A program made the position numbers and the translations under genes. A DNA stretch of 64,000 bases from an uncultured Lachnospiraceae bacterium (GTDB lineage: Bacteria > Bacillota > Clostridia > Lachnospirales > Lachnospiraceae), in NCBI GenBank assembly GCA_949948735.1, contig CATLGV010000004.1:124001-188000 (forward strand), in the 5' to 3' direction. Shown piece by piece: positions 2,150 to 11,860 of the stretch. Under the pieces are notes generated by a model. That model worked only from the letters and a program-made list of their open reading frames with translations. It was not told where the DNA came from and ran no database searches. How positions within the stretch are numbered: the stretch's first letter is position 1; every line of letters begins with the position of its first letter.

Positions 2150-2227
2150 TCAGTCAAATTCAGGGTTGAATGCATAGAAGTTCTTGCTGTCCAGATTTTC
2201 CTGAACGATGCGCAGGGCTTCACCGAA
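2150..2227 (-). pseudogene. cotJC: cotJC 3' fragment (last 25 codons), cut off by the inserted element
   Basis: On the minus strand this stretch encodes FGE-ALRIVQENLDSK and then NFYAFNPEFD before a TGA stop, the expected C-terminus of the spore-coat manganese-catalase-like protein CotJC. The rest of the gene lies 8.7 kb away at 10889-11413, in the same orientation. The nine bases coding FGE (2219-2227) are repeated exactly at the other junction. Joining there gives a continuous 197-codon CotJC. Bases beyond 2227 belong to the element and keep the frame open by chance for some codons. The fragment has no start of its own. Confidence 0.88.
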
Positions 2228-2247
2228 ACGGGCGGATTGAAGTAAAT

Positions 2248-2610
2248 TTATCTGTTGATTTTCTGCATTTTCTTGATGATGGATTGCCAATACATGCGGT
2301 CTTTCAAGACCCGGATTACCGTAATCGTGGAATTCTCCACAACAAAGAAGATTAAATATGTACTGTAAGGTCTGAAATATATGCTCAATCCCTCAATCAC
2401 ATATCCCGTAGCTTCATAGCCTTTGGGAAAGGAATCCAGTTCCTTGATTGCCTTCTTGATCTTCTTTGAAAAGTTTTCCGCATATTCACGATATTTGAAA
2501 GTGTCGAGAATATACTTTTTGGTTGACTTAATATCCGAGAGAGCATCTTTGGAAATCACAATTTTGTATTTTTTAGGTTTATCTAAAGAATGTTTTTCTT
2601 CTTTTGGCAT
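2248..2610 (-). CDS. RelE/ParE-family toxin
   Basis: Small basic protein of 120 aa in the RelE/ParE superfamily; members either cleave ribosome-bound mRNA or poison gyrase. Visible family features are the N-terminal beta strand KYKIVISKDALSDI, the helical hairpin rich in Lys, and the C-terminal core strands LIFFVVENSTITVIRVL followed by a basic tail. The start codon follows the antitoxin stop with no gap, so translation is probably coupled. It lies between the recombinase gene and the cotJC-side end of the element, a position suited to element maintenance. RelE versus ParE activity cannot be decided from sequence. Confidence 0.8.
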   Translation of the reverse strand: MPKEEKHSLDKPKKYKIVISKDALSDIKSTKKYILDTFKYREYAENFSKKIKKAIKELDSFPKGYEATGYVIEGLSIYFRPYSTYLIFFVVENSTITVIRVLKDRMYWQSIIKKMQKINR

Positions 2611-2781
2611 TTATATTTTGTCAATTTCCTCCCATGCTTCATCAATCGTATAAACATCACCTTTTTTCAGACTTTCTATTCCCTTGGAGAGTTCGTCATA
2701 TAATGCGCCTATGGCTGCTTTTTCGGAATAATCCGTTTTTAGGATTTCTTGATTTCTGATTGCCTGTGCTGCAGGTGCCAT
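2611..2781 (-). CDS. Putative RelB/ParD-like antitoxin (56 aa)
   Basis: Short open frame of 56 codons directly upstream of the toxin, beginning MAPAAQAIRNQEIL and ending EEIDKI. The C-terminal half (acidic, with YTIDEAWEEID) resembles toxin-wrapping tails of RelB/StbD-type antitoxins. A GGGAAG ribosome site lies about 7 bases before the ATG, and a good promoter is found at 2811-2840. The assignment rests mainly on size, order and spacing with the RelE-like gene, as is usual for such pairs. It probably neutralises the toxin and represses the operon. Confidence 0.7.
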   Translation of the reverse strand: MAPAAQAIRNQEILKTDYSEKAAIGALYDELSKGIESLKKGDVYTIDEAWEEIDKI

Positions 2782-2810
2782 AGTATCACTTCCCTTCGAT
2801 TATTTTCTTT

Positions 2811-2840
2811 ATTATACGGTATTTAGTATTAGCTTATCAA
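2811..2840 (-). promoter_or_regulatory. Promoter of the toxin-antitoxin operon
   Basis: Reading the minus strand, a -35 of TTGATA (2840-2835) and a consensus -10 TATAAT (2816-2811) are separated by 18 bases. The antitoxin ATG lies about 30 bases downstream of the -10. Confidence 0.65.
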
Positions 2841-2896
2841 CAGATTTTATTAAATTTTTCTCAAAGCTGTGTGTCTTAGACTTTCATGGTTCATGG

Positions 2897-4483
2897 TTAA
2901 ATGTTCCAAGTGATTTCAATGTTTCCGTCTGCAATGCGAATAACTTTGATAAGCGTATCAACTACCGCCTGTCTGTCCGGGGGAGAGAGCGTTTCCCATG
3001 TTTTTACATGATTGGTTATCTGCTTCAATCTGCCCTCTGTGTCTGTGACATTTGCCGTAACGATTTCTTCCTGCAAGGCTTTTCGCTCTGCGTCCAGTTC
3101 CGATACTTTTTCGTCTATGTACTTCATCAGAACGCCGCTTGCCCCGGACACTTTGGAGAGAAGTTCTTCGATTTCTTCCTCAATCTGTGTCAGACGGATT
3201 TTTTTCATCATGTGCTTTTGGGGGAATGCCTGTATTTCAGGGAGTACATGCTGTTCCTTATCTCTTGTGTCAGATAGACAGGAAATCAGGATTCCTCCGA
3301 AAGCCGTCTCTTTGAGAGCTGAAAACTCCGACAGTTTTTCCTTGATTGCGTCAAGCATATATTCCTCTAAAACGTCTGCATAAACCGTACAGCCTGCCCC
3401 AGCGCAGTTGCTCCCACGGCTTCCCGACTGACTGCAGACAAAGTAACGTCCCCACTTTGTTTTTGCTTTGCGTATTGTCAGCGCATAACCGCATTTGCCG
3501 CATTTTACCTTACCAACGAGCCATGAATTTTTAGGCTTGCAAGTCTTTGTAGACTGTCGGTTATTTAGACACCGTATGCGGCAGGCTAACCATGTCTTAG
3601 AGGGGATAAAACCCTTATGCGGCGCAAGCACAATCTCTTTGTCGGATAAGTCGCTCTGTTTTCTTGAAGTGGAACCCGTGCCCTTGTAGAGATAGCAGGC
3701 ATTATAACCCGTAAAATCACTTGCCGGGTTATAGATGTTAGCGCCTTGACTTTGAAAAAACTGGTACACGTCAATATCGGCTTGCACATACACGGGATTG
3801 CGGAGCATTTCACTGATACGGGCGGTATTCCAGTTTGCACCACGCAGATTTTTAATCTGATGTTCGTTTAAGTACCGTACAATATCCCCAAGTGAATTGT
3901 CCGTGTCCGCATACATGGAATAAATCAGCTTTAACTGTTCGCTTTCCTCCGGGACTTCCTCGTACATGGAAGTGCGGATATTATCAATGACCGTGTTCGT
4001 CAGACGATAGCCGTAGGGGATACGCCCGCCCATGTAAAAACCGCGCTTGCACCGTGCATAATAAGCGTCCGTTACCCGCTTTTGTATGGTTTCCCGTTCC
4101 AGTTGGGCGAACACGATACAGATATTTAACATCGCTCTGCCGATCGGCGTGGATGTGTCAAATTTTTCCGTGGAAGAAACAAACTCCACATGATATTTCT
4201 GAAAAATCTCCATCATGTTTGCAAAATCCAAAATGGAACGGCTGATACGGTCGAGTTTGTAGACAATAACCCGTTTGATTTTTCCTGCACGAATATCAGT
4301 CATCATTTTTTCAAAGCCGGGACGGTTGGTGTCCTTGCCCGAAAAACCTCTGTCCGTATATTCCATGCAGGCTTCCCCGTGGGTTTCGTATCTGCAATAT
4401 TCAAGCTGGCTTTCTACGGATATGCTGTCCTTTTTTTCGATTGACTGTCTTGCATACAATGCGTCATATAATGCGTCATACAT
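2897..4483 (-). CDS. Large serine recombinase (integrase/excisionase of the element)
   Basis: Site-specific DNA recombinase of 528 aa. The resolvase domain comes first: catalytic Ser14 in YARQS, then YKLDRISRS and the segment with GRAMLNICIVFAQLERE. The recombinase domain follows (GGRIPYGYR; RGANWNTARISEMLRNPVY), then a zinc-ribbon (KCGKCGY... CSQSGSRGSNC) and a C-terminal coiled coil from about residue 430. Domain order and length match TndX/TnpX-type transposon recombinases and SpoIVCA-like enzymes. AGGAGGT at 4491-4497 supports the ATG. The N-terminus shows a direct duplication of TATGACGCATT, giving YDALYDAL. All catalytic parts appear intact, so it could still excise the element from cotJC. 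Confidence 0.93.
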   Translation of the reverse strand: MYDALYDALYARQSIEKKDSISVESQLEYCRYETHGEACMEYTDRGFSGKDTNRPGFEKMMTDIRAGKIKRVIVYKLDRISRSILDFANMMEIFQKYHVEFVSSTEKFDTSTPIGRAMLNICIVFAQLERETIQKRVTDAYYARCKRGFYMGGRIPYGYRLTNTVIDNIRTSMYEEVPEESEQLKLIYSMYADTDNSLGDIVRYLNEHQIKNLRGANWNTARISEMLRNPVYVQADIDVYQFFQSQGANIYNPASDFTGYNACYLYKGTGSTSRKQSDLSDKEIVLAPHKGFIPSKTWLACRIRCLNNRQSTKTCKPKNSWLVGKVKCGKCGYALTIRKAKTKWGRYFVCSQSGSRGSNCAGAGCTVYADVLEEYMLDAIKEKLSEFSALKETAFGGILISCLSDTRDKEQHVLPEIQAFPQKHMMKKIRLTQIEEEIEELLSKVSGASGVLMKYIDEKVSELDAERKALQEEIVTANVTDTEGRLKQITNHVKTWETLSPPDRQAVVDTLIKVIRIADGNIEITWNI

Positions 4484-4559
4484 TCTATCTACCTCCTAAG
4501 ACGTAAGACGCATATCCACAAAACGATCATATCGTTTCCGTGATTGTTTTGCAAGGGAC

Positions 4560-4739
4560 TTACGCATATTTCTTAAAAATCTGATAGAGCCTTGCTCCGA
4601 TTTCCTGCCGGGCTTCCTGTTCCGATTTTTTCTGAAAGGAGGGGTAGATGTTGGTAACGGTCAGCCTCATTTTATCTATGGAAAGATTTTCCATGTGTAT
4701 TTGGGTATCGGGTGTAGGAGAATTATTCGTTTTTGACAT
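4560..4739 (-). CDS. Small transposon-encoded protein (TnpW-like)
   Basis: Open frame of 59 codons upstream of the recombinase and in the same orientation, starting MSKTNNSPTPDTQIHMEN and ending YQIFKKYA. An AGGAGAAAG ribosome site precedes the ATG. Its N-terminus and place resemble the small TnpW-type proteins of Tn4451/Tn1549-like elements, whose role is not established. The match is from memory only, so the family call is tentative. The protein is hydrophilic and without membrane segments. Confidence 0.5.
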   Translation of the reverse strand: MSKTNNSPTPDTQIHMENLSIDKMRLTVTNIYPSFQKKSEQEARQEIGARLYQIFKKYA

Positions 4740-5128
4740 AAACTTTCTCCTTTGACGGTTTCCCTAAATTTTATGAGAAGCGGCAAGTACACTATACGGG
4801 AATAGCGTAAACTCCCCCTCTACTACTTACTACGCACGGGAGGTAAAAATGGCAAAGTTTCCGGGAAAGTTTATAAAAAGTTTAGAATAGCGGAATAGCA
4901 AGCATAGGGATTGAGTACTCAATCCCGAAAAATTCTCTATCTTTATGAGAAGTGACGTATAGAATTTTTATTTGTTGGGAAATTCCCAAACCCTTATCGA
5001 AAGATAAAAAAGAAGCGGACGGTTAGGGTGGCGCAGGAAGCGTTTTAAGGGCATTTCCGGGGCGGTATGTGGCAAATTTCATTGCCACCCAGAAAAGGGG
5101 CTTCTAAGCGTGCACAAGGGCAGAAAAG
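4740..5128. other. Non-coding stretch of the element with several inverted repeats
   Basis: No convincing gene is seen in these 390 bases. They hold a 20-bp perfect palindrome at 4907-4926 (arms GGGATTGAGT/ACTCAATCCC), a second near-palindrome at 4976-4990 (TTGGGAAATTCCCAA), and the GTGGCAA/TTGCCAC repeat described as a possible oriT. The segment looks like an internal deletion scar of a larger conjugative element in which transfer genes are gone but cis-acting sites remain. Confidence 0.5.
5069..5112. other. Candidate origin of transfer (oriT-like repeat)
   Basis: A 7-bp perfect inverted repeat GTGGCAA (5069-5075) / TTGCCAC (5082-5088) with a 6-nt loop is followed by a conserved-looking tract, AAAAGGGGCTTCTAAGCGTG. 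An inverted repeat next to a conserved nick tract is the layout of relaxase recognition sites in Tn1549-like elements. No relaxase gene remains in the element, so mobilisation would have to be in trans. This is an inference from layout. Confidence 0.35.
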
Positions 5129-5172
5129 AACACCGGGAAATGACAGTATATCTATCATCATTTCCCGGTGTT
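5129..5172 (-). terminator. Terminator after the winged-helix regulator
   Basis: A 15-bp perfect stem (5129-5143 with 5158-5172) whose promoter-proximal arm overlaps the stop codon region of the minus-strand regulator gene. On the minus strand it is followed by TTCTTTTCTG, consistent with a Rho-independent terminator. Confidence 0.75.
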
Positions 5173-5591
5173 TATCCGTCAAATTTATAGCCGACACCTA
5201 ACACGGTTTTTATGTAGGTCGGGTTTTTGCTGTCCGGCTCTATCTTTTTCCGTAGGTTGTAAATCACGTTGACAACGCTTGAATGGCAGCTATCGCTATC
5301 CATGTTCCAAACGGCTTCAAATATCTGCGTCTGCGTAAGGACAATGCCGGGATTGGAAGCAAGGAATACAAGGGTACTGTATTCAAGGCGGGTAAGGTTT
5401 ATTTCCTCCCCGTCTTGAAATACCCGCCGCCCGCTCTGCCTTATTTCCAGTCCCGGAAAAGACATTCCCGAAGCAGGGACGGGGATAGTCTGCACGGCTT
5501 CAAGTGATACGCAGTCAGAGATTGCCGCTATGATTTTGTTAATTACTTTTTCCTCTTGCTCGTTAAGCGTCAGCAGTAACAATTTACTCAT
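5172..5591 (-). CDS. Winged-helix (OmpR/PhoB-type) regulator without receiver domain
   Basis: DNA-binding protein of 139 aa. Residues about 45-139 form an OmpR/PhoB winged helix, visible as NLTRLEYSTLVFLASNPG, IFEAVWNMD, VVNVIYNLRKKIEPD and YIKTVLGVGYKF. The N-terminal 45 residues are too short to be a phosphoacceptor domain, so activity is probably not controlled by phosphorylation in the usual way. It lies just downstream of the MATE gene in the same direction, and a 15-bp-stem terminator follows its stop. It may be the local regulator of the efflux/oxidoreductase cargo. Confidence 0.8.
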   Translation of the reverse strand: MSKLLLLTLNEQEEKVINKIIAAISDCVSLEAVQTIPVPASGMSFPGLEIRQSGRRVFQDGEEINLTRLEYSTLVFLASNPGIVLTQTQIFEAVWNMDSDSCHSSVVNVIYNLRKKIEPDSKNPTYIKTVLGVGYKFDG

Positions 5592-5637
5592 GTTACCACC
5601 TCTTTATGTGGGGACGGAAACTTTTTTGTTGCCGTCT

Positions 5638-6975
5638 TTAATTATTTATATTTGTTTTCCATTTTCCTTTGCAGAAATGTACCCATGTGATGATACAGCC
5701 AAGCCCCCAACCAAACAAAGTGTTCCACCAAATCATATGGTAGCCGATTGCAGGGATTTCCCGCAAAACGTAAGTTGAAATGACACGGACAGCCAATGCT
5801 CCTGTTGCAACAAAGGTAGAATACAGTGCGTTGTTTGCCCCTTGAAATAAGCCCAAAAGCGGGAAATAGGAAGCAAAAGGAATTAGGCAGACTGCCACAC
5901 ACCTAACATGGGAAACGCAATATGCGGCAGATACCGAACCTAAACCAAATGCTGTCACAATCGGTTCTGCAAAGATGAATACCACGGTTAAAATGCAGAC
6001 AGAAATTATTTCAGATATGATAACAGTATGCTTTGCGCCCGTTATAACCCTGTCAATCTTTCCTGCGCCGATATTCTGTCCTGTATAGGTGCTTTGTGTT
6101 GTCATTAAAGCATTGGCGGGAAGCGTCAGATACGTTTCTATTTTTTGTGCTACGGAAAAAGAAGCGGTCATTGCTTCGCCGTAACTGTTGACAGCACGTT
6201 GTATGAAAACAAAGCCAAAAGATACAATAAACTGCTGCAATGCCATAGGAAAACCTGTTTTAAGAGTGAGCTTTGCCAATGACCACTCAAAGGCTAATTC
6301 TTTTCGGTTGAAACGAAACAGGGGGTACTTCTTTATCATGTAGGCAAAACCCGCTATGCAGGAAATAGCCTGTGCTATATCCGTAGCAACGGCAGCACCG
6401 ATCACGCCCATTTGTAAATTATAAACAAGCACAATATCAAGCACAATATTGATGATACTTGCAATCAAAAGAAAATACAAGGTTGCCTTGCTGTCCCCAA
6501 TGCCCCGGAGAATGGCAGCGACAATGTTATAACCAAACTGAAACACAAGCCCAAAAGCATAAATTTTGAAATAGGTGTCTGCCATTGATAGCAGGCTTTC
6601 CGGCGTTGCCAAAATATATTGCAGGGCAAAGCGGCTGATAAGCACACCAACCGCTGTTGCCGCAATTCCCATACCAAGCATGACAAGGAGAGAGGACAAT
6701 GCCTGCCTGCGCATTTCCTTTTCTTTCCCTGCGCCGAAAAGCTGTGCAATAAGTACGCAAGCCCCGGCAGAAAAACCGTTTGCCATTGCCAAAAAAACCA
6801 GTGTCAGAACGCCGCAGGCTCCAACGGCAGCTAAAGAAGTTTCGCCGGAAAAATTACCGACAATGATTGTGTCCGCCGTATTATAAAACTGTTGGAGCAG
6901 CAGCCCCATAAATACGGGGAACATAAAAGATAATATTCCTTTCCACGGTGTCCCGTTTGTCAATGATTTTTCCAT
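5638..6975 (-). CDS. MATE-family efflux pump
   Basis: Multidrug and toxin extrusion protein of 445 aa with about 12 hydrophobic helices; it exports cationic or amphipathic compounds using an ion gradient. The start is taken at MEKSLTNGTPWKGILSF. Its ATG (6975-6973) overlaps the SDR stop codon by one base (TAATG), implying translational coupling. The frame stays open further upstream inside the SDR gene, but that extension has no membrane or family character. Paired halves are visible, including QQFYNTADTIIVGNFSG in the first helix region. It belongs to the element's cargo operon. Confidence 0.9.
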   Translation of the reverse strand: MEKSLTNGTPWKGILSFMFPVFMGLLLQQFYNTADTIIVGNFSGETSLAAVGACGVLTLVFLAMANGFSAGACVLIAQLFGAGKEKEMRRQALSSLLVMLGMGIAATAVGVLISRFALQYILATPESLLSMADTYFKIYAFGLVFQFGYNIVAAILRGIGDSKATLYFLLIASIINIVLDIVLVYNLQMGVIGAAVATDIAQAISCIAGFAYMIKKYPLFRFNRKELAFEWSLAKLTLKTGFPMALQQFIVSFGFVFIQRAVNSYGEAMTASFSVAQKIETYLTLPANALMTTQSTYTGQNIGAGKIDRVITGAKHTVIISEIISVCILTVVFIFAEPIVTAFGLGSVSAAYCVSHVRCVAVCLIPFASYFPLLGLFQGANNALYSTFVATGALAVRVISTYVLREIPAIGYHMIWWNTLFGWGLGCIITWVHFCKGKWKTNINN

Positions 6976-7625
6976 TAGTGTACGATTTCGCACTCCTTTC
7001 GTTCCGTATAAAGTTTCCAAAAGTCCTCTGCCAGTAATGCCGGGTCGCAGGCTTCGCCGGGCGCAATCACACCCGTTACCGTAACTGTCCCCACGAATAC
7101 ATTCTGTTTTTTCAGTTCTTCGTGGAGTGCGATACACATTGCCCTTAGAGCAGCCTTATCCATTGACAGAGGGAGATATTCATACATGGGGTTTAATGCA
7201 AGACCGCCGCCCGTTACAAGGACAGTACCGTTTTTCTTGCTAAATTCCTCTCCAAGCACCTGTCCGATTGCATGATAAGCACCTGCCACATCTACCATAT
7301 AACGGTTCATCAGCAGATCAACGTCTTTTGCTTCTTTGATTTCTGCGTCCAGTCCAGTAATGCCTACATTGTAGAATAATACGTCTGGTACGCCGAACTG
7401 TGCTTTTAATTCGTCAATGGCTTTTGTAACAGAGTAGGGTTTGGAAGCGTCTGCAATTTTGGTATAGACTTCAATCCCCTTATCCTTAAACTCTTTCTCA
7501 TATGCTGCAAGATGTTCCGGACTTCTCGCCATAAGAACTACCCGGAAATCATTTTTCCCGAATTTTTCCGCTACCCGGTTTCCGCAGCCGTTTCCTGCTC
7601 CAAGAACAAAAATTTTTTTTTTCAT
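6975..7625 (-). CDS. Short-chain dehydrogenase-like protein lacking the usual Tyr
   Basis: Rossmann-fold SDR-like protein of 216 aa. The cofactor loop GAGNGCGN lies at the N-terminus (VLGAGNGCGNRVAEKF), and the NNAG region is replaced by FYNVGITG. At the YxxxK position the sequence reads LSMDKAAL, so the catalytic Tyr is missing although the Lys remains. The fold and NAD(P) binding seem preserved, but standard dehydrogenase chemistry is doubtful. It is second-last in a minus-strand operon with a flavin reductase and an aldo/keto reductase upstream and a MATE pump overlapping its stop. Confidence 0.75.
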   Translation of the reverse strand: MKKKIFVLGAGNGCGNRVAEKFGKNDFRVVLMARSPEHLAAYEKEFKDKGIEVYTKIADASKPYSVTKAIDELKAQFGVPDVLFYNVGITGLDAEIKEAKDVDLLMNRYMVDVAGAYHAIGQVLGEEFSKKNGTVLVTGGGLALNPMYEYLPLSMDKAALRAMCIALHEELKKQNVFVGTVTVTGVIAPGEACDPALLAEDFWKLYTERKECEIVH

Positions 7626-7656
7626 AGTAAATCTTCCTTTCCATTTTTATTAAATT

Positions 7657-8166
7657 TTATAAAGAAGCACCAAGTTGATATGCCGCTTCTGTTTTACTTT
7701 TTCCAAGAACTTCTCCCCGGTTTTTCCAACCAAGATTACGCTCATAGGTATGATACCATGTAACAGCCTGTGAATAATCAGAACCGTCAGCCGTCATTAA
7801 AAGCACGCTTTCTCTTGCAAATTTTCCATACCCAAGACATTCTAATTCCGCATATAAACGGTCTGCCACTGTTTTCAGAGTCCCGGTAATCGTCCAAAAG
7901 TAGACAGGGGAAGCGAATACTACCACATCACAATCTGCAAAGGCGGAATAAATCTGCTCCATATCGTCTTTTTGAGTACATGGGCTTTTACTGTCACGTC
8001 CGGCTCGTAAACAGCCTTTGCAGCTATGGATATTCATGCTGTCTAAATAGAACTCCTGTATATGGTGTCCTGCGCCGCAAGCACCGTCTGAAAATGCCTG
8101 CATCAGCTTTACGGTACTTCCGTTTTTACGGGCTGCACCGTTCAATATTAGAATGTTTTTTGACAT
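7657..8166 (-). CDS. Flavodoxin-fold NADPH-dependent FMN reductase
   Basis: FMN-binding oxidoreductase of 169 aa. The phosphate-binding loop NGAARKNGSTVKLM is near the N-terminus, and a CKGCLRAGRD segment followed by DDMEQIYSAFADCDVVVFASPVYFW matches the iron-sulfur flavoprotein / NADPH-dependent FMN reductase group. The Cys pair could be redox-active. ATG at 8166 is preferred to GTG at 8178 because AAAGGTGG gives correct spacing. It sits 24 bp downstream of the aldo/keto reductase gene and 31 bp upstream of the SDR gene, in one operon. Confidence 0.82.
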   Translation of the reverse strand: MSKNILILNGAARKNGSTVKLMQAFSDGACGAGHHIQEFYLDSMNIHSCKGCLRAGRDSKSPCTQKDDMEQIYSAFADCDVVVFASPVYFWTITGTLKTVADRLYAELECLGYGKFARESVLLMTADGSDYSQAVTWYHTYERNLGWKNRGEVLGKSKTEAAYQLGASL

Positions 8167-8190
8167 TGTTACCACCACCTTTTCATAGAG

Positions 8191-8988
8191 TTACCACCAG
8201 TTAAATAAACTGCGCCCGATTTCCAGTTTTTCAACCGCCTGCATTTCGTCCGCTTCTAAATCAAAATCCAACACGGTAAGGTTTTCTTTCATGTGCTCCA
8301 TATTAGTGCTTTTGGGAATTACGATAATTCCCTGTTGAAGCAAGAAACGAAGCGCAATTTGTGAAATACTTTTACCGTGATTTTTGGCAATTTCAATCAG
8401 TACGGGGTTCTGCCAAATGCCGTTTTGCCCGCAGGCAAGCGGCGACCAGCTTTCATGTTTTGTCCCAATTTGACATTCCAGTTTGCGTAATTGTGTCTGT
8501 TGCCGGAATACATGGGTTTCTACTTGGTTAATTGCCGGAATGACTTTACAGTGGTTAATTAAGTCAAGGTATCGTTCCTCTAAAAAATTTGATATACCTA
8601 TTGCCCGTAACTTTCCGTTTTTATATGCCGTTTCCATAGCACGGTAAATTTCATGTACATCTCCTGTCGGCTCATGGATCAGCAGCAGGTCAATATAATC
8701 TACATCTAATTTTTTCAATGAATTATCAATGGAGCGCAATGTATCTTGATACCCACGGCAAGCCCATAACTTAGTAGTTATAAATAATTCATTTCTTGCT
8801 ACGCCGGACTTGCGGCAGGCAAGTCCTACTTCCTTTTCGTTACCGTAACATTGTGCGGTGTCTATGGAGCGGTAGCCTGTATGAATTGCGTCTGCCACAC
8901 ATTTTTCTGTCATTCTTGGCGGTGTCTGATACGTTCCATAGCCTATTTGCGGCATTTTTACGCCATTATTCAACGTAACATATTCCAA
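8191..8988 (-). CDS. Aldo/keto reductase
   Basis: NADPH-dependent carbonyl reductase of 265 aa. The complete AKR tetrad can be read: Asp43 and Tyr48 (SIDTAQCYGNE), Lys73 (FITTKLW) and His105 (LLIHEP). The cofactor-binding IPKSTN motif is near the C-terminus. Overall it resembles 2,5-diketo-gluconate/glyoxal reductase types. AAAGGAGG precedes the ATG. It is the first gene of the element's redox/efflux operon and is divergent from a LysR regulator, the classic arrangement for a LysR-controlled operon. The operon may detoxify and export a reactive carbonyl or quinone; this is inference. Confidence 0.9.
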   Translation of the reverse strand: MEYVTLNNGVKMPQIGYGTYQTPPRMTEKCVADAIHTGYRSIDTAQCYGNEKEVGLACRKSGVARNELFITTKLWACRGYQDTLRSIDNSLKKLDVDYIDLLLIHEPTGDVHEIYRAMETAYKNGKLRAIGISNFLEERYLDLINHCKVIPAINQVETHVFRQQTQLRKLECQIGTKHESWSPLACGQNGIWQNPVLIEIAKNHGKSISQIALRFLLQQGIIVIPKSTNMEHMKENLTVLDFDLEADEMQAVEKLEIGRSLFNWW

Positions 8989-9039
8989 TCCTATTTTCCT
9001 CCTTTCCCTGTTTTCGCCTTTATTGTAGCGTGGAATGGA

Positions 9040-9069
9040 TTGACATAGAAGATACCAAAATGTTAAAAT
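9040..9069 (+). promoter_or_regulatory. Promoter of the lysR gene
   Basis: Consensus -35 TTGACA (9040-9045) and -10 TAAAAT (9064-9069) are 18 bases apart and 32 bases upstream of the lysR start. The opposite-strand promoter for the aldo/keto reductase operon must overlap this region, a usual place for LysR binding, though no clear -35 was found for it. Confidence 0.6.
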
Positions 9070-9101
9070 GGCTTTTAGAAAATCTAAAAGCAGGTGGTGT
9101 T

Positions 9102-9995
9102 ATGTATAGTAAGGAACTTGCTACATTTATTTCTGTTGCGGAACAGGGAAGTTTTTTGAAAGCGTCAAAAGAACTGTATATTACGCCTGCGTCCGTTATG
9201 AACCAAATGAACAAGTTGGAAGCGGATATTGGGGTAAAGCTGATTGAGCGGACTAATCAAGGGACGCAGCTTACGGCAGCCGGACGTTCTGTTTACAAGG
9301 ACGCAAAAAAGATTATCAAGCAGGCGGAAACTGCGGTCATTCATGCCCGGCAGATTGCAGGAAACGAAAAAAAGGCAATCTGTATCGGAACATCTATTCT
9401 GCGTCCCTGTAAAATGTTGATTGATTTATGGGCGAAAATTGATGACGGGACGTTACCCGTCACAATCCGAATTGTACCTTTTGATGACAGTCCGGCAGGT
9501 ATGGAAGCAATGCTAGAAACGCTTGGCAAAGAAATAGACTGTTTTGTCAGCCCGTGCGACAGTCTAACATGGAAAGCGCAATATAATATCCTCGTATTAA
9601 GGCAGGGGGAGTGTTGTATTGCTGTTCCACGAAAGCATAGATTAGCAAAAAAAGAACGTCTGCGGTGGAATGATTTAGACGGGGAAACGCTCATGCTTGT
9701 ACAACGGGGAAATTCTCCCGTATTAAACAGATTGCATGATGAAATTGAAACAAAGCACCCTAAGATTAGCATAGTAGATATACCGCATTTTTACGATACA
9801 GATATATTTAATGAATGTGAACAGAGTGGTTACATTATGGAAACTTTGGATATTTGGAAAGACGTACACCCGTCTATTATTACAATCCCTATGGAATGGG
9901 ATTATACAATGCCTTATGGTATTGTATATGCAAAGCAGCCGTCTAAGCAGTTGCAGGAATTTGTTAATATCATACAAAATAATTTGAATACTTGA
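9102..9995 (+). CDS. LysR-family transcriptional regulator
   Basis: Regulator of 297 aa. The N-terminal HTH (LATFISVAEQGSFLKASKELYITPASVMNQMNKLE-type layout, residues about 3-60) is followed by a substrate-binding domain. The start is set at MYSKEL (ATG 9102), with AGGTGGTG six bases upstream; an in-frame upstream ATG at 9030 would add residues foreign to the family and overlap the promoter. It is the only plus-strand gene of the element and is divergent from the AKR-FMN reductase-SDR-MATE operon, which it very probably controls in response to an unknown effector. Confidence 0.88.
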   Translation: MYSKELATFISVAEQGSFLKASKELYITPASVMNQMNKLEADIGVKLIERTNQGTQLTAAGRSVYKDAKKIIKQAETAVIHARQIAGNEKKAICIGTSILRPCKMLIDLWAKIDDGTLPVTIRIVPFDDSPAGMEAMLETLGKEIDCFVSPCDSLTWKAQYNILVLRQGECCIAVPRKHRLAKKERLRWNDLDGETLMLVQRGNSPVLNRLHDEIETKHPKISIVDIPHFYDTDIFNECEQSGYIMETLDIWKDVHPSIITIPMEWDYTMPYGIVYAKQPSKQLQEFVNIIQNNLNT

Positions 9996-10018
9996 AAAAC
10001 AGACATAAATATATAAAT

Positions 10019-10056
10019 GCCGGGAAACGGTAGCCCGCAGACTGCCATTCCCCGGC
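10019..10056 (-). terminator. Imperfect hairpin after a decayed gene in the element
   Basis: GCCGGGAAA (10019-10027) pairs imperfectly with TTCCCCGGC (10048-10056). On the minus strand it follows the stop codon of the gene remnant at 10063-10140. It is likely the old terminator of that gene and may also serve the convergent lysR. Confidence 0.45.
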
Positions 10057-10062
10057 GTTTCA

Positions 10063-10140
10063 TTACTCCATATCTTCAGCAGGCAGAAACACAAGCTCTG
10101 CAAATTCTTCTTTATGCTTTTCCCAGACTATCAACGCCAA
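10063..10140 (-). pseudogene. C-terminal remnant of a mobile-element gene
   Basis: A minus-strand fragment reads ALIVWEKHKEEFAELVF followed by LPAEDME and a TAA stop. It has the look of a genuine protein end but no start or upstream part, because the preceding hairpin (10141-10196) interrupts it. I do not recognise the parent with certainty; it is probably a conjugative-element gene whose body was deleted. Confidence 0.45.
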
Positions 10141-10196
10141 ACAGCCAAGTCAAGGACGTAAACGCCGCTAAAGCGGTAAATCCTTGACTTGGCTGT
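10141..10196. repeat. Long inverted repeat with nested hairpin
   Basis: A 16-bp perfect inverted repeat (10141-10156 with 10181-10196; arms begin ACAGCCAAGTC) encloses a second small hairpin, CCGC/GCGG at 10165-10168 and 10173-10176. No T-run follows, so it is not a standard terminator. It separates two gene remnants and may be a recombination or replication-related site left by deletion. Confidence 0.6.
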
Positions 10197-10377
10197 CTGC
10201 CATTGATAAAGGGTAATTAAGGCATAAATGAATATCTATGTTGCAGCAACCTCTTTTCCTTTCCATTCCCTTCATGCGATAGGGATAATTCAATCAAAAT
10301 TCAAAAGAACGGATAGGAAAGGAATAGATAATTTATCATTCTGTAATTTATTCTTTAGTATTTTATATATCTATATT
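10197..10377 (-). pseudogene. Decayed continuation of the HTH replication protein
   Basis: Between the hairpin at 10196 and the TAA at 10378, no intact frame exists. Short stretches in a shifted minus-strand frame (for example LSLSHEGNGKEKRLL) look like the hydrophilic linker expected after the HTH domain. This supports the view that the gene upstream is a truncated remnant. No other feature is visible here. Confidence 0.35.
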
Positions 10378-10767
10378 TTATTGCGTTGGTTTTCCCTGTG
10401 TTGGAAAATCCAATATTGGATTTTCCGGTGTAGGGTTTTCCACGATTGGATTATTGGCATAGTTGACATTCAGTTTTGGAGAAGAATAAACTGTATATTC
10501 CATTTCCCGAAGCAATCCCTTTTCATCGCGTATTCTGTTGCAGGTAATATATCCTGCCTGCTCCAGTTCGTGTATAACCGTTGTAATAGCGTCTAAGCCC
10601 TCTTTGTTGATATAAGCTAACCCTTGCAAGGTGAAATTCCATTCCGGGGGCAATGAGAGTATTTGACAGAGCAATCCTTTTGCCCGCAGGGATAACTGGC
10701 GGTTGCGTAAGTGGGTGTTTGGCATGATTGTATAATCTTTGACTTTTTCTACTCTGAATACTGGCAT
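10378..10767 (-). CDS. Truncated helix-turn-helix protein (replication-initiator-like N-terminus)
   Basis: Protein of 129 aa from ATG 10767, with AAAGGA upstream, beginning MPVFRVEKVKDYTIMPNTHL. The winged-helix part (LSLRAKGLLCQILSLP, GLDAITTVIHELEQAGYI) is of the type at the N-terminus of RepA/DUF6017 proteins of Tn1549-like elements. It ends after a Pro/Asn-rich linker (ENPTPENPILDFPTQ). The family normally continues with a C-terminal domain; downstream frames show stop-riddled traces of linker. The gene therefore looks truncated by a frameshift and deletion, and DNA-binding may survive. Confidence 0.65.
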   Translation of the reverse strand: MPVFRVEKVKDYTIMPNTHLRNRQLSLRAKGLLCQILSLPPEWNFTLQGLAYINKEGLDAITTVIHELEQAGYITCNRIRDEKGLLREMEYTVYSSPKLNVNYANNPIVENPTPENPILDFPTQGKPTQ

Positions 10768-10837
10768 TATAGGCTTGTCCTTTCTTTTTGTGCGAAAGCC
10801 GAAGTCCACAGCTTTGAGGGGCGTGTGGGTATGCGTC

Positions 10838-11413
10838 TTAGTGATTGTATTTTGTGTGTTTCGATTTACTACAATCTTCCCGGTTTGTTTCACCGAAGCG
10901 CTGGAAGTGTACGATTTCTCTTTGGCGAAGGAAGCGGATGGGTTCTGCGATTTCTGCGTCCTTCACAAGGCGGAGGATGTTGTCGTAGGTTGTGCGGGCC
11001 TTCTGTTCTGCCGCCATATCCTCAAACAAATCCGTAACAGCATCGCCCTTGGACTGGAATTCACAGGCATTAAACGGAATACCGCCTGCTGCCTGCGGCC
11101 ACAGGGCGAGCGTGTGGTCAACATAGTATTTGTCAAAGCCGGACTCCTTCAACTGGGCAGGCGTCAGGTTCTTGGTGAGCTGATATACAATCGTGCAGAT
11201 CATTTCGAAGTGCGCCAGCTCTTCGGTACCGATGTCCGTCAGGACGCCGGTTACCGTGTTGAAGGGCATCGTGTACCGCTGCGCGAGGTAACGCATGGAT
11301 GCGGCCAGTTCTCCGTCCGGTCCGCCATATTGTGAGATAATAACCTGTGCAATTTCCGGGTTCGTCTGTGTGATGTTGACAGGAAACTGCAGCCGTTTTT
11401 CATAATTCCACAT
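10838..11413 (-). CDS. cotJC: CotJC spore-coat Mn-catalase-like protein, 5' part interrupted by the element
   Basis: Residues 1-175 are a good CotJC: a ferritin-like, manganese-catalase-type spore-coat protein (MWNYEKRLQFPVNIT at the start, GTEELAHFEMI with metal ligands, EIVHFQRFGE at the end). After Glu175 the frame enters the element and adds 16 foreign residues (TNREDCSKSKHTKYNH) before a stop. The missing 22 C-terminal residues lie at 2150-2218. The start overlaps the cotJB stop by one base (TAATG). As it stands the cell would make a truncated CotJC unless the element is excised. Confidence 0.92.
   Translation of the reverse strand: MWNYEKRLQFPVNITQTNPEIAQVIISQYGGPDGELAASMRYLAQRYTMPFNTVTGVLTDIGTEELAHFEMICTIVYQLTKNLTPAQLKESGFDKYYVDHTLALWPQAAGGIPFNACEFQSKGDAVTDLFEDMAAEQKARTTYDNILRLVKDAEIAEPIRFLRQREIVHFQRFGETNREDCSKSKHTKYNH
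10889..10897 (-). other. att core at the cotJC 5' side
   Basis: TTCGGTGAA on the minus strand, identical to 2219-2227. Flanking bases then differ: cotJC sequence on one side and element sequence on the other. Together the two copies define the crossover region of the serine recombinase. The joined element ends would form a partly symmetric attP around this core (CCCGTTTCGGTGAAACAAAC). Confidence 0.75.
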
Positions 11414-11691
11414 TAATTATACCCCCTTTCCCAAGGCCAATCCTGCAGCGCCCATTTCCATTCCTGCATGTTGTCGTCAAGAATGTCCAGTACCAAAGGA
11501 CCGTAAGCGGCAGTGTATTCTTTTGTAAGCTGGCGTTTCATACTGTTGTATCGCTTAAAGGAGCTGATGGCCTGTTGGTCATAGGGGTGTGTGTCAAGAT
11601 ACAGGTTAAGCTCTTTTAAAGCGAAGTCTACGCTGCTGATTTCGTTCAGCAGTCTTTTGCGTTCCCGGCAGTTGCAAGGCTTAAAGTCCAT
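11413..11691 (-). CDS. cotJB: CotJB spore-coat protein
   Basis: Spore-coat protein of 92 aa, acting with CotJA and CotJC in the mother-cell-made coat. Family features are LLNEISSVDFALKELNLYLDTHP in the first half and YGPLVLDI followed by a Trp-rich end (WKWALQDWPWERGYN). Its ATG overlaps the 3' end of cotJA by 11 bases, and its stop overlaps the cotJC start by one base. The three genes are therefore one tightly coupled sporulation operon. Confidence 0.93.
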   Translation of the reverse strand: MDFKPCNCRERKRLLNEISSVDFALKELNLYLDTHPYDQQAISSFKRYNSMKRQLTKEYTAAYGPLVLDILDDNMQEWKWALQDWPWERGYN

Positions 11692-11860
11692 ATCCAGGCC
11701 TCCTTCCCGTAAAAGGTTTATTCAGCTCAGGAAAGACGGTTCCGGTCCGGAAGCCTTCTTCCAGGTTCTCATACATGACAGCGTTTGTCTGCCATGGAAC
11801 ATATGCCATAGCGATAGGCATTTGTTCGAGAGTCGGCATTTGTTGTTTCCATTCCTGCAT
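11681..11860 (-). CDS. cotJA: CotJA spore-coat-associated protein
   Basis: Short protein of 59 aa (MQEWKQQMPTLEQMPIAMAY...), with the CotJA core of AMAYVPWQ, then YENLEEGFRTGTVFPELNKPF. AAGGAG lies 9 bases before the ATG. First gene of cotJABC and overlapping cotJB by 11 bases. CotJA is needed for CotJC assembly into the coat in Bacillus subtilis. An expected sigma-E promoter upstream is only weakly visible, with CATATTAT on the minus strand as a possible -10 near 11898-11905. Confidence 0.9.
   Translation of the reverse strand: MQEWKQQMPTLEQMPIAMAYVPWQTNAVMYENLEEGFRTGTVFPELNKPFTGRRPGYGL

Follow-up and report, generated by a model that had tools for sequence, protein, structure and literature searches.

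In the present study, we analyzed a 64,000-nucleotide stretch of DNA from an uncultured Lachnospiraceae bacterium (GenBank assembly GCA_949948735.1, contig CATLGV010000004.1, positions 124,001 to 188,000 of the forward strand; hereafter, the window), in which the spore-coat gene cotJC is split by an element encoding a large serine recombinase. In comparison with related genomes, pieces of cotJC were found to end at four sites, A (codons 29-31), B (codons 60-65), C (codons 134-137), and D (codons 173-176), the window element lying at site D, and the separated pieces proved to be under selection at the protein level. On these grounds it is highly likely that the element is excised in the mother cell, restoring full-length CotJC. 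A broader proposal, which we regard as probable with a lesser degree of confidence, is that cotJC of Lachnospiraceae constitutes a dedicated mother-cell docking niche resembling an intron at the DNA level, in which at least five serine-recombinase lineages have independently come to occupy codons of the conserved catalase motifs. In the dying mother cell, full-length CotJC could then be made only once two, in one genome apparently three, different elements had been excised, each by the recombinase that it encodes.

Structure of the split cotJC gene

The 5' part of the window cotJC, comprising codons 1-175, lies at positions 10889-11413 of the minus strand and matches the Mn_catalase family (PF05067, 4e-44), and the 3' part, comprising codons 176-197 and the stop codon without a start codon of its own, lies at positions 2150-2218 of the same strand. 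A 9-bp core, TTCGGTGAA on the minus strand (TTCACCGAA as read on the plus strand), encoding Phe-Gly-Glu, is present both at the junction of the element with the tail (2219-2227) and at that of the head with the element (10889-10897), the two copies being 8,670 bp apart. This core was the longest word common to both junction regions, the runner-up being 7 bp. Recombination of the gene at TTCGGTGAA in silico gave a 594-bp open gene of 197 codons plus stop; as in the known sporulation elements, a sporulation gene is interrupted in such a way that precise removal would restore its frame. When unrestored, the 5' part runs on as an open reading frame (ORF) to position 10838 and would give a truncated protein of 191 aa with an altered end. 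Between the two parts lies an intact large serine recombinase gene (2897-4483, minus strand) of the site-D clade, whose 528-aa product has Resolvase, Recombinase, and Zn-ribbon domains. An earlier note, made from the letters of this DNA alone, had described cotJC as broken after codon 175, with its last 22 codons and stop 8.67 kb away in the same orientation, the nine Phe-Gly-Glu bases at both junctions, an uninterrupted 197-codon gene upon their recombination, and an intact large serine recombinase in between, and this description was confirmed in all points checked. Its expectation for relatives with an unbroken cotJC was also borne out, as the nearest intact relative (G328, locus L139) was found to agree with the window at the junction in both the core and the reading frame. 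The G328 gene differed from the joined window cotJC at 73 of 594 nucleotides, with 63 synonymous and 5 nonsynonymous codons.

Searching named genomes for relatives of the window recombinase yielded 103, the best 80 of which (65-94% identical to the window copy) were analyzed. Among them, 76 were located in cotJC: in 73 loci the cotJC tail was found on the same strand 27-3877 bp past the recombinase, in L029 and L062 the head lay upstream of the recombinase with the contig ending shortly after, and in L075 the head lay beside the recombinase in the opposite orientation. Since the G328 orthologue has the same join and 73 of the 80 recombinase relatives have a cotJC tail downstream, the split in the window exceeds what chance would account for. 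The 73 orphan tails had no stop or frameshift before the conserved end, with the provisos that L106 contains Ns, that in L072 bases are altered on the side of the core facing the element, and that the frame of L087 was read only in part. The short direct repeats at the junctions measured 9 bp in the window and 14-15 bp in G299 and G300; at several other loci only 2-5 bp were found in register, reflecting either drift or alignment offset. Element size at site D ranged from 2.5 to 10.8 kb in the 34 loci with both ends, a range that favors small elements, as both ends had to lie within one locus and no locus extended beyond 10 kb from the recombinase; a larger element of about 57 kb was also found.

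Several loci of this family showed further peculiarities. L074 contains, besides its intact tail, a second, frameshifted tail copy, and in L059 and L063 a native-looking cotJC end precedes a second copy, which is split and in the same orientation, the two forming a tandem arrangement. L082 and L083, which lie in metagenome-assembled genomes labeled Spirochaetales and Mailhella, respectively, carry the recombinase outside cotJC, pointing either to binning errors or to a recombinase able to use other sites and to move beyond spore formers.

Purifying selection on the separated pieces

While the element is in place, the tail has neither a start codon nor access to the cotJ promoter. The strongest evidence for recurrent restoration of cotJC came from the selection acting on such orphan pieces, which was measured in related loci, a single copy such as that of the window not permitting the measurement. 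Three genomes of a one-per-species collection (L092, L094, and L095) have one insertion in common, with the element and flanks colinear and 92-94% identical over 13-21 kb. Pairwise comparison of head plus tail within this trio gave 35, 37, and 42 synonymous versus 2, 1, and 3 nonsynonymous changes, and that of the tails alone gave 6, 3, and 5 synonymous versus no nonsynonymous changes. The tail of L073 likewise differed from those of the trio by 7-9 synonymous and no nonsynonymous changes, and a pair split at site C (L204/L205) showed 29.5 synonymous versus 6.5 nonsynonymous changes. Furthermore, five pairs having no locus in common (L092/L094, L047/L060, L089/L102, L175/L180, and L169/L181), chosen from 39 rows as those with both genes split and with the element and host sides alignable at ~79% or more, gave 37 synonymous versus 1 nonsynonymous change in the tails, where about four-fifths of the changes would be nonsynonymous under no selection (P ~4e-24); in some of these pairs similarity is higher in the element than in the host flank, and part of the divergence may predate the insertion. 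Considering that these pieces are usable only after removal of the element, selection on them at the protein level strongly suggested recurrent precise restoration. The earlier note had left undecided whether the window holds a mother-cell rearrangement or a plain insertion, and the purifying selection on the orphan tails now makes the comparison lean strongly to restoration.

The same changes bear on the possibility that the truncated 191-aa CotJC works alone and the tail is kept for some other reason, for example as an attachment site. Although the truncated ORF is long and open, an attachment constraint acts on DNA, and the tail changes fall nearly all at third positions, in the five pairs including codons more than eight codons from the core, so that such a constraint fails to explain the conservation of the tail. 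At sites A and B, moreover, most of the protein would be missing from the truncated product. We therefore regard this explanation as scarcely credible and favor restoration of the full-length gene.

Four insertion sites occupied by different recombinase lineages

Split pieces were found by whole-genome search with the joined CotJC protein, the resulting rows being classified by eye. In a genus sample of 38 genomes, 24 had a split cotJC, 13 had an uninterrupted close orthologue, and one (G309, 66% complete) had no match. Seven of the 24 were judged from a single piece (G302, G310, G316, G322, G323, G324, and G333), which ends at or near a contig edge in G310 and G333. Two of the 13 intact genomes (G330 and G332) also carry site-D remains; in G332 (L185), a frameshifted site-D recombinase has upstream of it an intact cotJC complete with tail, and an orphan tail follows ~5 kb on; this single case is in keeping with repair by a different route. 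In a family sample of 90 genomes, 53 had a match to cotJC, of which ~21 were split, the ambiguous G037 and G048 being left out. For G000 (84% complete), the split cotJC was the only copy found. The earlier note, which dealt with a single element, was therefore too narrow in scope, as the window site is one of at least four in the same gene.

Two elements were found in one cotJC in G300 (B and D), G314 (C and D), G059 (A and C), and L040, L076, and L099 (each C and D), and all pieces were recovered for nine doubly split genes (L040, L076, L099, G059, G300, G314, G335, G336, and G338). In G327, pieces end at B, C, and D, implying three elements, with the piece between C and D not found; one piece each was likewise not found in the drafts G313, G317, and G325. 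Anaerocolumna sp. MB42-C2 (L104, G335), whose closed chromosome has an intact cotJC paralogue elsewhere, carries the pieces 1-65 and ~61-175 and the tail collinearly, with gaps of ~6 kb and ~57 kb, and in Eubacterium sp. 14-2 the gaps between the pieces are ~72 kb and 2.8 kb. An assembly artefact was rejected as the origin of the splits, since the pieces are collinear on single contigs, including this closed chromosome, and in three related genomes. In L176 (G319), the site-B pieces lie on opposite strands of one contig, reflecting an inversion or a misassembly.

As a control, spoIVA was searched in the genus sample and gave a match in 36 of the 38 genomes, which was nearly complete in 32 (from profile position 1-4 to 492); among the four partial matches, those of G326, G321, and G309 were cut at a contig edge and that of G306 consisted of two pieces on two contigs. 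For sigK, no match exceeded the model cut-off, and the best of the matches listed, in which sigK is not distinguished from its relatives, were single near-full-length frames without a split.

Serine recombinases adjoin most of the junctions examined; for the site-C tail of G316, none was present in the stretch examined. In a tree of 41 recombinases, those of sites A (10), C (13), and D (9) each formed one well-supported group, and the nine of site B had at least two origins on starred branches, with long branches flagged among them; the L086 recombinase was not relied on, as a different enzyme may act at site B in this locus. The recombinases were 19-32% identical between sites. A single family hopping between the sites was unsupported, as the A, C, and D recombinases form separate clades with mutual identities of 19-29%. 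The four sites coincide with, or are a few codons away from, motifs alignable with solved manganese catalases, namely GEL, EE..H, AAE, and REI.H, which we take to be metal ligands. It is likely that such conserved protein motifs, by providing conserved DNA targets, explain the choice of sites.

Small ORF, promoter-like block, and proposed mechanism

Most of the site-D elements read have a short ORF, mostly of 54-72 aa, directly upstream of the recombinase. In the window this ORF (4560-4739, minus strand) encodes 59 aa and is a candidate for a recombination directionality factor. Upstream of it lies a 33-bp promoter-like block, GTATAGTGTACTTGCCGCTTCTCATAAAATTTA, with a CATA-type -10 (4765-4797, minus strand), recognized by its conservation: the block of ~33 bp, (G/T)TATAGTGTACTTGCCGCTTCTCATAAAATTTA in the window clade, is kept across elements and the DNA 5' of it differs. 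Of 56 distinct sequences preceding the small ORF, 52 contained the motif TARTGTAC-N11-CATA, the four misses being L041 (by one base), L030 and L098 (another ORF start taken), and L009 (motif absent); in 12 further loci, some of which have a diverged ORF, no small-ORF motif was detected by script. A looser TAC-N11-CATA occurred no more than 420 bp ahead of the recombinase in 66 of the 73 named loci whose sequence there extended to 350 bp or more (misses: L068, L090, L092, L094, L095, L096, and L104). The CATA also occurs in front of host genes of the mother-cell type: of 20 spoIVA upstreams from the genus, 19 (all but L227) have it at one and the same column, and it lies 18-80 bp before 51 of 52 cotJA-like starts, for which shuffling gives 38%. 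By eye, a small ORF immediately precedes most site-C recombinases and is itself frequently preceded by a TAC-spacer-CATA motif; nothing convincing was seen for small ORFs near the A and B recombinases.

Judging from these sequences, the sigma factor behind the promoter-like block would be of the mother-cell type, and the recombinases themselves seem, by eye, to have sigma-A-like promoters. This arrangement would match the logic of the skin element of Clostridioides difficile, in which, according to PMC5025042, the recombinase is constitutively expressed from sigma-A and the directionality factor is under sigma-E and SpoIIID. The catalase-bearing, cotJC-like coat operons of C. difficile are reported to be lower in a sigK mutant (PMC3789822).

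In the mechanism that we propose, cotJC would serve as a preferred docking gene for serine-recombinase elements, and the window element would have integrated via recombination at TTCGGTGAA, codons 173-175. The element would stay in the chromosome in vegetative cells and in the forespore. In the mother cell, the small element-encoded protein, expressed from the mother-cell-type promoter, would act as the directionality factor for the recombinase, the element would be excised as a circle, and full-length CotJC would be made. As the mother cell dies, the element would lose nothing, and the spore would keep it. The earlier note had suggested that a mobile element can restore cotJC by precise excision, perhaps developmentally; restoration is supported by the selection on the tails, the G328 join, and the promoter-like block, while the excision event and the stage at which it takes place in the mother cell are what we infer, as are the function assigned to the small protein and the sigma factor involved.

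Restoration could in principle be real and yet non-developmental, with random excision and re-integration in growing populations leaving enough intact cells at the onset of sporulation. The sigma-A-like promoter before the recombinase would fit such a scheme, as would the report that the excised yin element of Clostridium botulinum is detected in culture at all time points (PMC10747680). The retention of a mother-cell-type block upstream of the small ORF, with the DNA 5' of it not retained, argues for a regulated event instead, and random simultaneous excision would be rare in genes carrying two elements. We accordingly consider the non-developmental alternative very unlikely.

A less improbable, though still unlikely, alternative to excision in the mother cell is that these are plain mobile elements with a conserved landing site, cotJC being knocked out while occupied and staying conserved through the dominance of element-free lineages and the young age of the insertions. 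The site-D recombinase is indeed often less diverged at silent sites than the cotJC that it splits, as seen in many pairs, indicating that site-D elements also spread horizontally, and the location of the sites at or beside the catalase-aligned motifs would suit such a landing site. An insertion common by descent to three genomes whose tails changed only synonymously is at odds with this explanation, as are the 73 orphan tails free of stops and frameshifts and the recovery of all pieces in the nine doubly split genes, to be set against the one piece not found in each of the four drafts. Horizontal spread would, moreover, be compatible with restoration, because excision in the mother cell would harm the host little and the element could persist.

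Several observations weigh against excision in the mother cell. Many site-D insertions are young, so part of the selection may predate the insertion. The pair L034/L078 showed 2 synonymous versus 3 nonsynonymous changes, and distant split pairs, in which synonymous sites are nearly saturated, were mixed (L010/L044, 14.5:12.5; L060/L080, 13.5:7.5; L007/L076, 11.5:7.5). At L037, L056, L082, and L083, i.e., 4 of the 80 site-D loci, the same element end occurs at places other than cotJC, and a second cotJC paralogue, ~69-70% identical, is unbroken in about a dozen genus genomes; both findings suit the plain-element explanation. As for the regulatory signals, the protein of the small ORF had no match in Pfam, NCBIfam, or PHROGs, the window sigma-A-like promoter of the recombinase, TTGCAA-17-TATGAT (4526-4554, minus strand), is at chance level (1 match versus 1.0 expected) and weak alone, and L092, L094, and L095, the very trio giving the clearest selection signal, kept the CATAAAAT half of the block and not the TAC spacing, contrary to a uniform promoter. 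Finally, no excised join or circle was seen, the attachment-site (attP) pattern having 0 matches in IMG/VR viral contigs, which says little.

Comparison with known sporulation elements

The class of mechanism proposed here, i.e., sporulation gene-intervening elements such as skin, SP-beta, vfbin, gin, and yin, is already known. Like the cotJC elements, the C. difficile skin element in sigK is a serine recombinase element splitting a mother-cell gene (PMC5025042), and for its sigma-A recombinase and separate mother-cell directionality factor the cotJC element has a putative counterpart. It differs in that the target here is a coat-protein gene, not a sigma factor, in that several unrelated recombinase lineages occupy four sites of cotJC, and in that no phage genes were found among the scanned ORFs of the window element. 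The gin element in Bacillus cereus gerE (PMC5595907) is similarly non-phage, uses serine recombinases and a 9-bp core, and restores a sporulation gene on excision; in contrast to the window element, it is 28.6 kb in length, has three recombinases, resides in another gene and lineage, and its excision has been shown by experiment. The excision of SP-beta from Bacillus subtilis spsM during sporulation reconstitutes a spore-envelope gene (PMC4191935), which is similar to our proposal for cotJC, but SP-beta is an active prophage, whereas the 34 site-D elements measured are of 2.5-10.8 kb and that of the window lacks a phage structural gene among the scanned ORFs. The recombinase-bearing yin element also resides in a late mother-cell gene (yabG) of a member of Clostridia, C. 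botulinum, but is a prophage reported to be unique to one strain (PMC10747680), whereas the cotJC elements are widespread. The helper-embedded phage-inducible chromosomal islands likewise have an integrase clade that repeatedly targets late-expressed genes, whose expression is delayed until excision; they split late genes of prophages, and the cotJC elements split a sporulation gene (PMC10111431).

The sporulation-gene rearrangements named in these papers amount to a handful, each with one element at one site of one gene. An intervening element in cotJC was not described in the titles and abstract openings of the open-access literature, an absence that is no proof, and the available part of a large serine recombinase survey (PMC10083194) mentions no sporulation or catalase target. 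The novelty appears to lie in the gene targeted, in how widely it is split, in the convergence upon four sites within it of several recombinase lineages, and in the presence of two, perhaps three, elements per copy. As cotJC is split in a large share of the sampled species of a major gut family, at four sites and by unrelated recombinases, it becomes possible to test directly, by comparison, why mobile DNA comes to reside in mother-cell genes. The elements also offer many natural sets of recombinase, attachment site, and candidate directionality factor for use as genetic tools. Bacteria able to make CotJC may, in addition, be annotated as having a truncated cotJC or none.

Gene content of the window element

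The intervening element spans positions 2219-10888, i.e., 8,670 bp including one core copy. The element as a prophage was rejected, since no phage structural domains were found in the ORFs scanned and no relative of its recombinase was found in a scan of IMG/VR viral contigs. Likewise, no relaxase or transfer genes were found among its scanned proteins, the larger elements at other loci being left unannotated. Upstream of the small ORF and its block lie cargo genes for a protein with a response-regulator DNA-binding domain (5172-5591), a MATE-family transporter with an uncertain start (5638-7137), a short-chain dehydrogenase (6975-7625), an FMN reductase/flavodoxin-like protein (7657-8178; a weak match, below cut-offs), and an aldo/keto reductase (8191-8988), all on the minus strand, and for a LysR-type regulator on the plus strand (9030-9995). 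The right end of the element encodes a replication-initiator-like protein (10378-10893, minus strand; phrog_4707, 8e-17). Beyond it, the host genes upstream of cotJC are cotJB (11413-11691, minus strand; PF12652) and, as read by eye, cotJA (11681-11860, minus strand), with CATATTATG upstream.

Between the recombinase and the tail, the window element encodes a ParE-type toxin of a toxin-antitoxin pair (2248-2610, minus strand), preceded by a small ORF that, as read by eye, is a probable antitoxin (2611-2781, minus strand). The distances from recombinase to tail in the 73 site-D loci mostly fell into two classes, 27-97 bp and ~550-770 bp, which fits the gain of such a ParE-type toxin-antitoxin pair (2248-2781 in the window) in part of the family.

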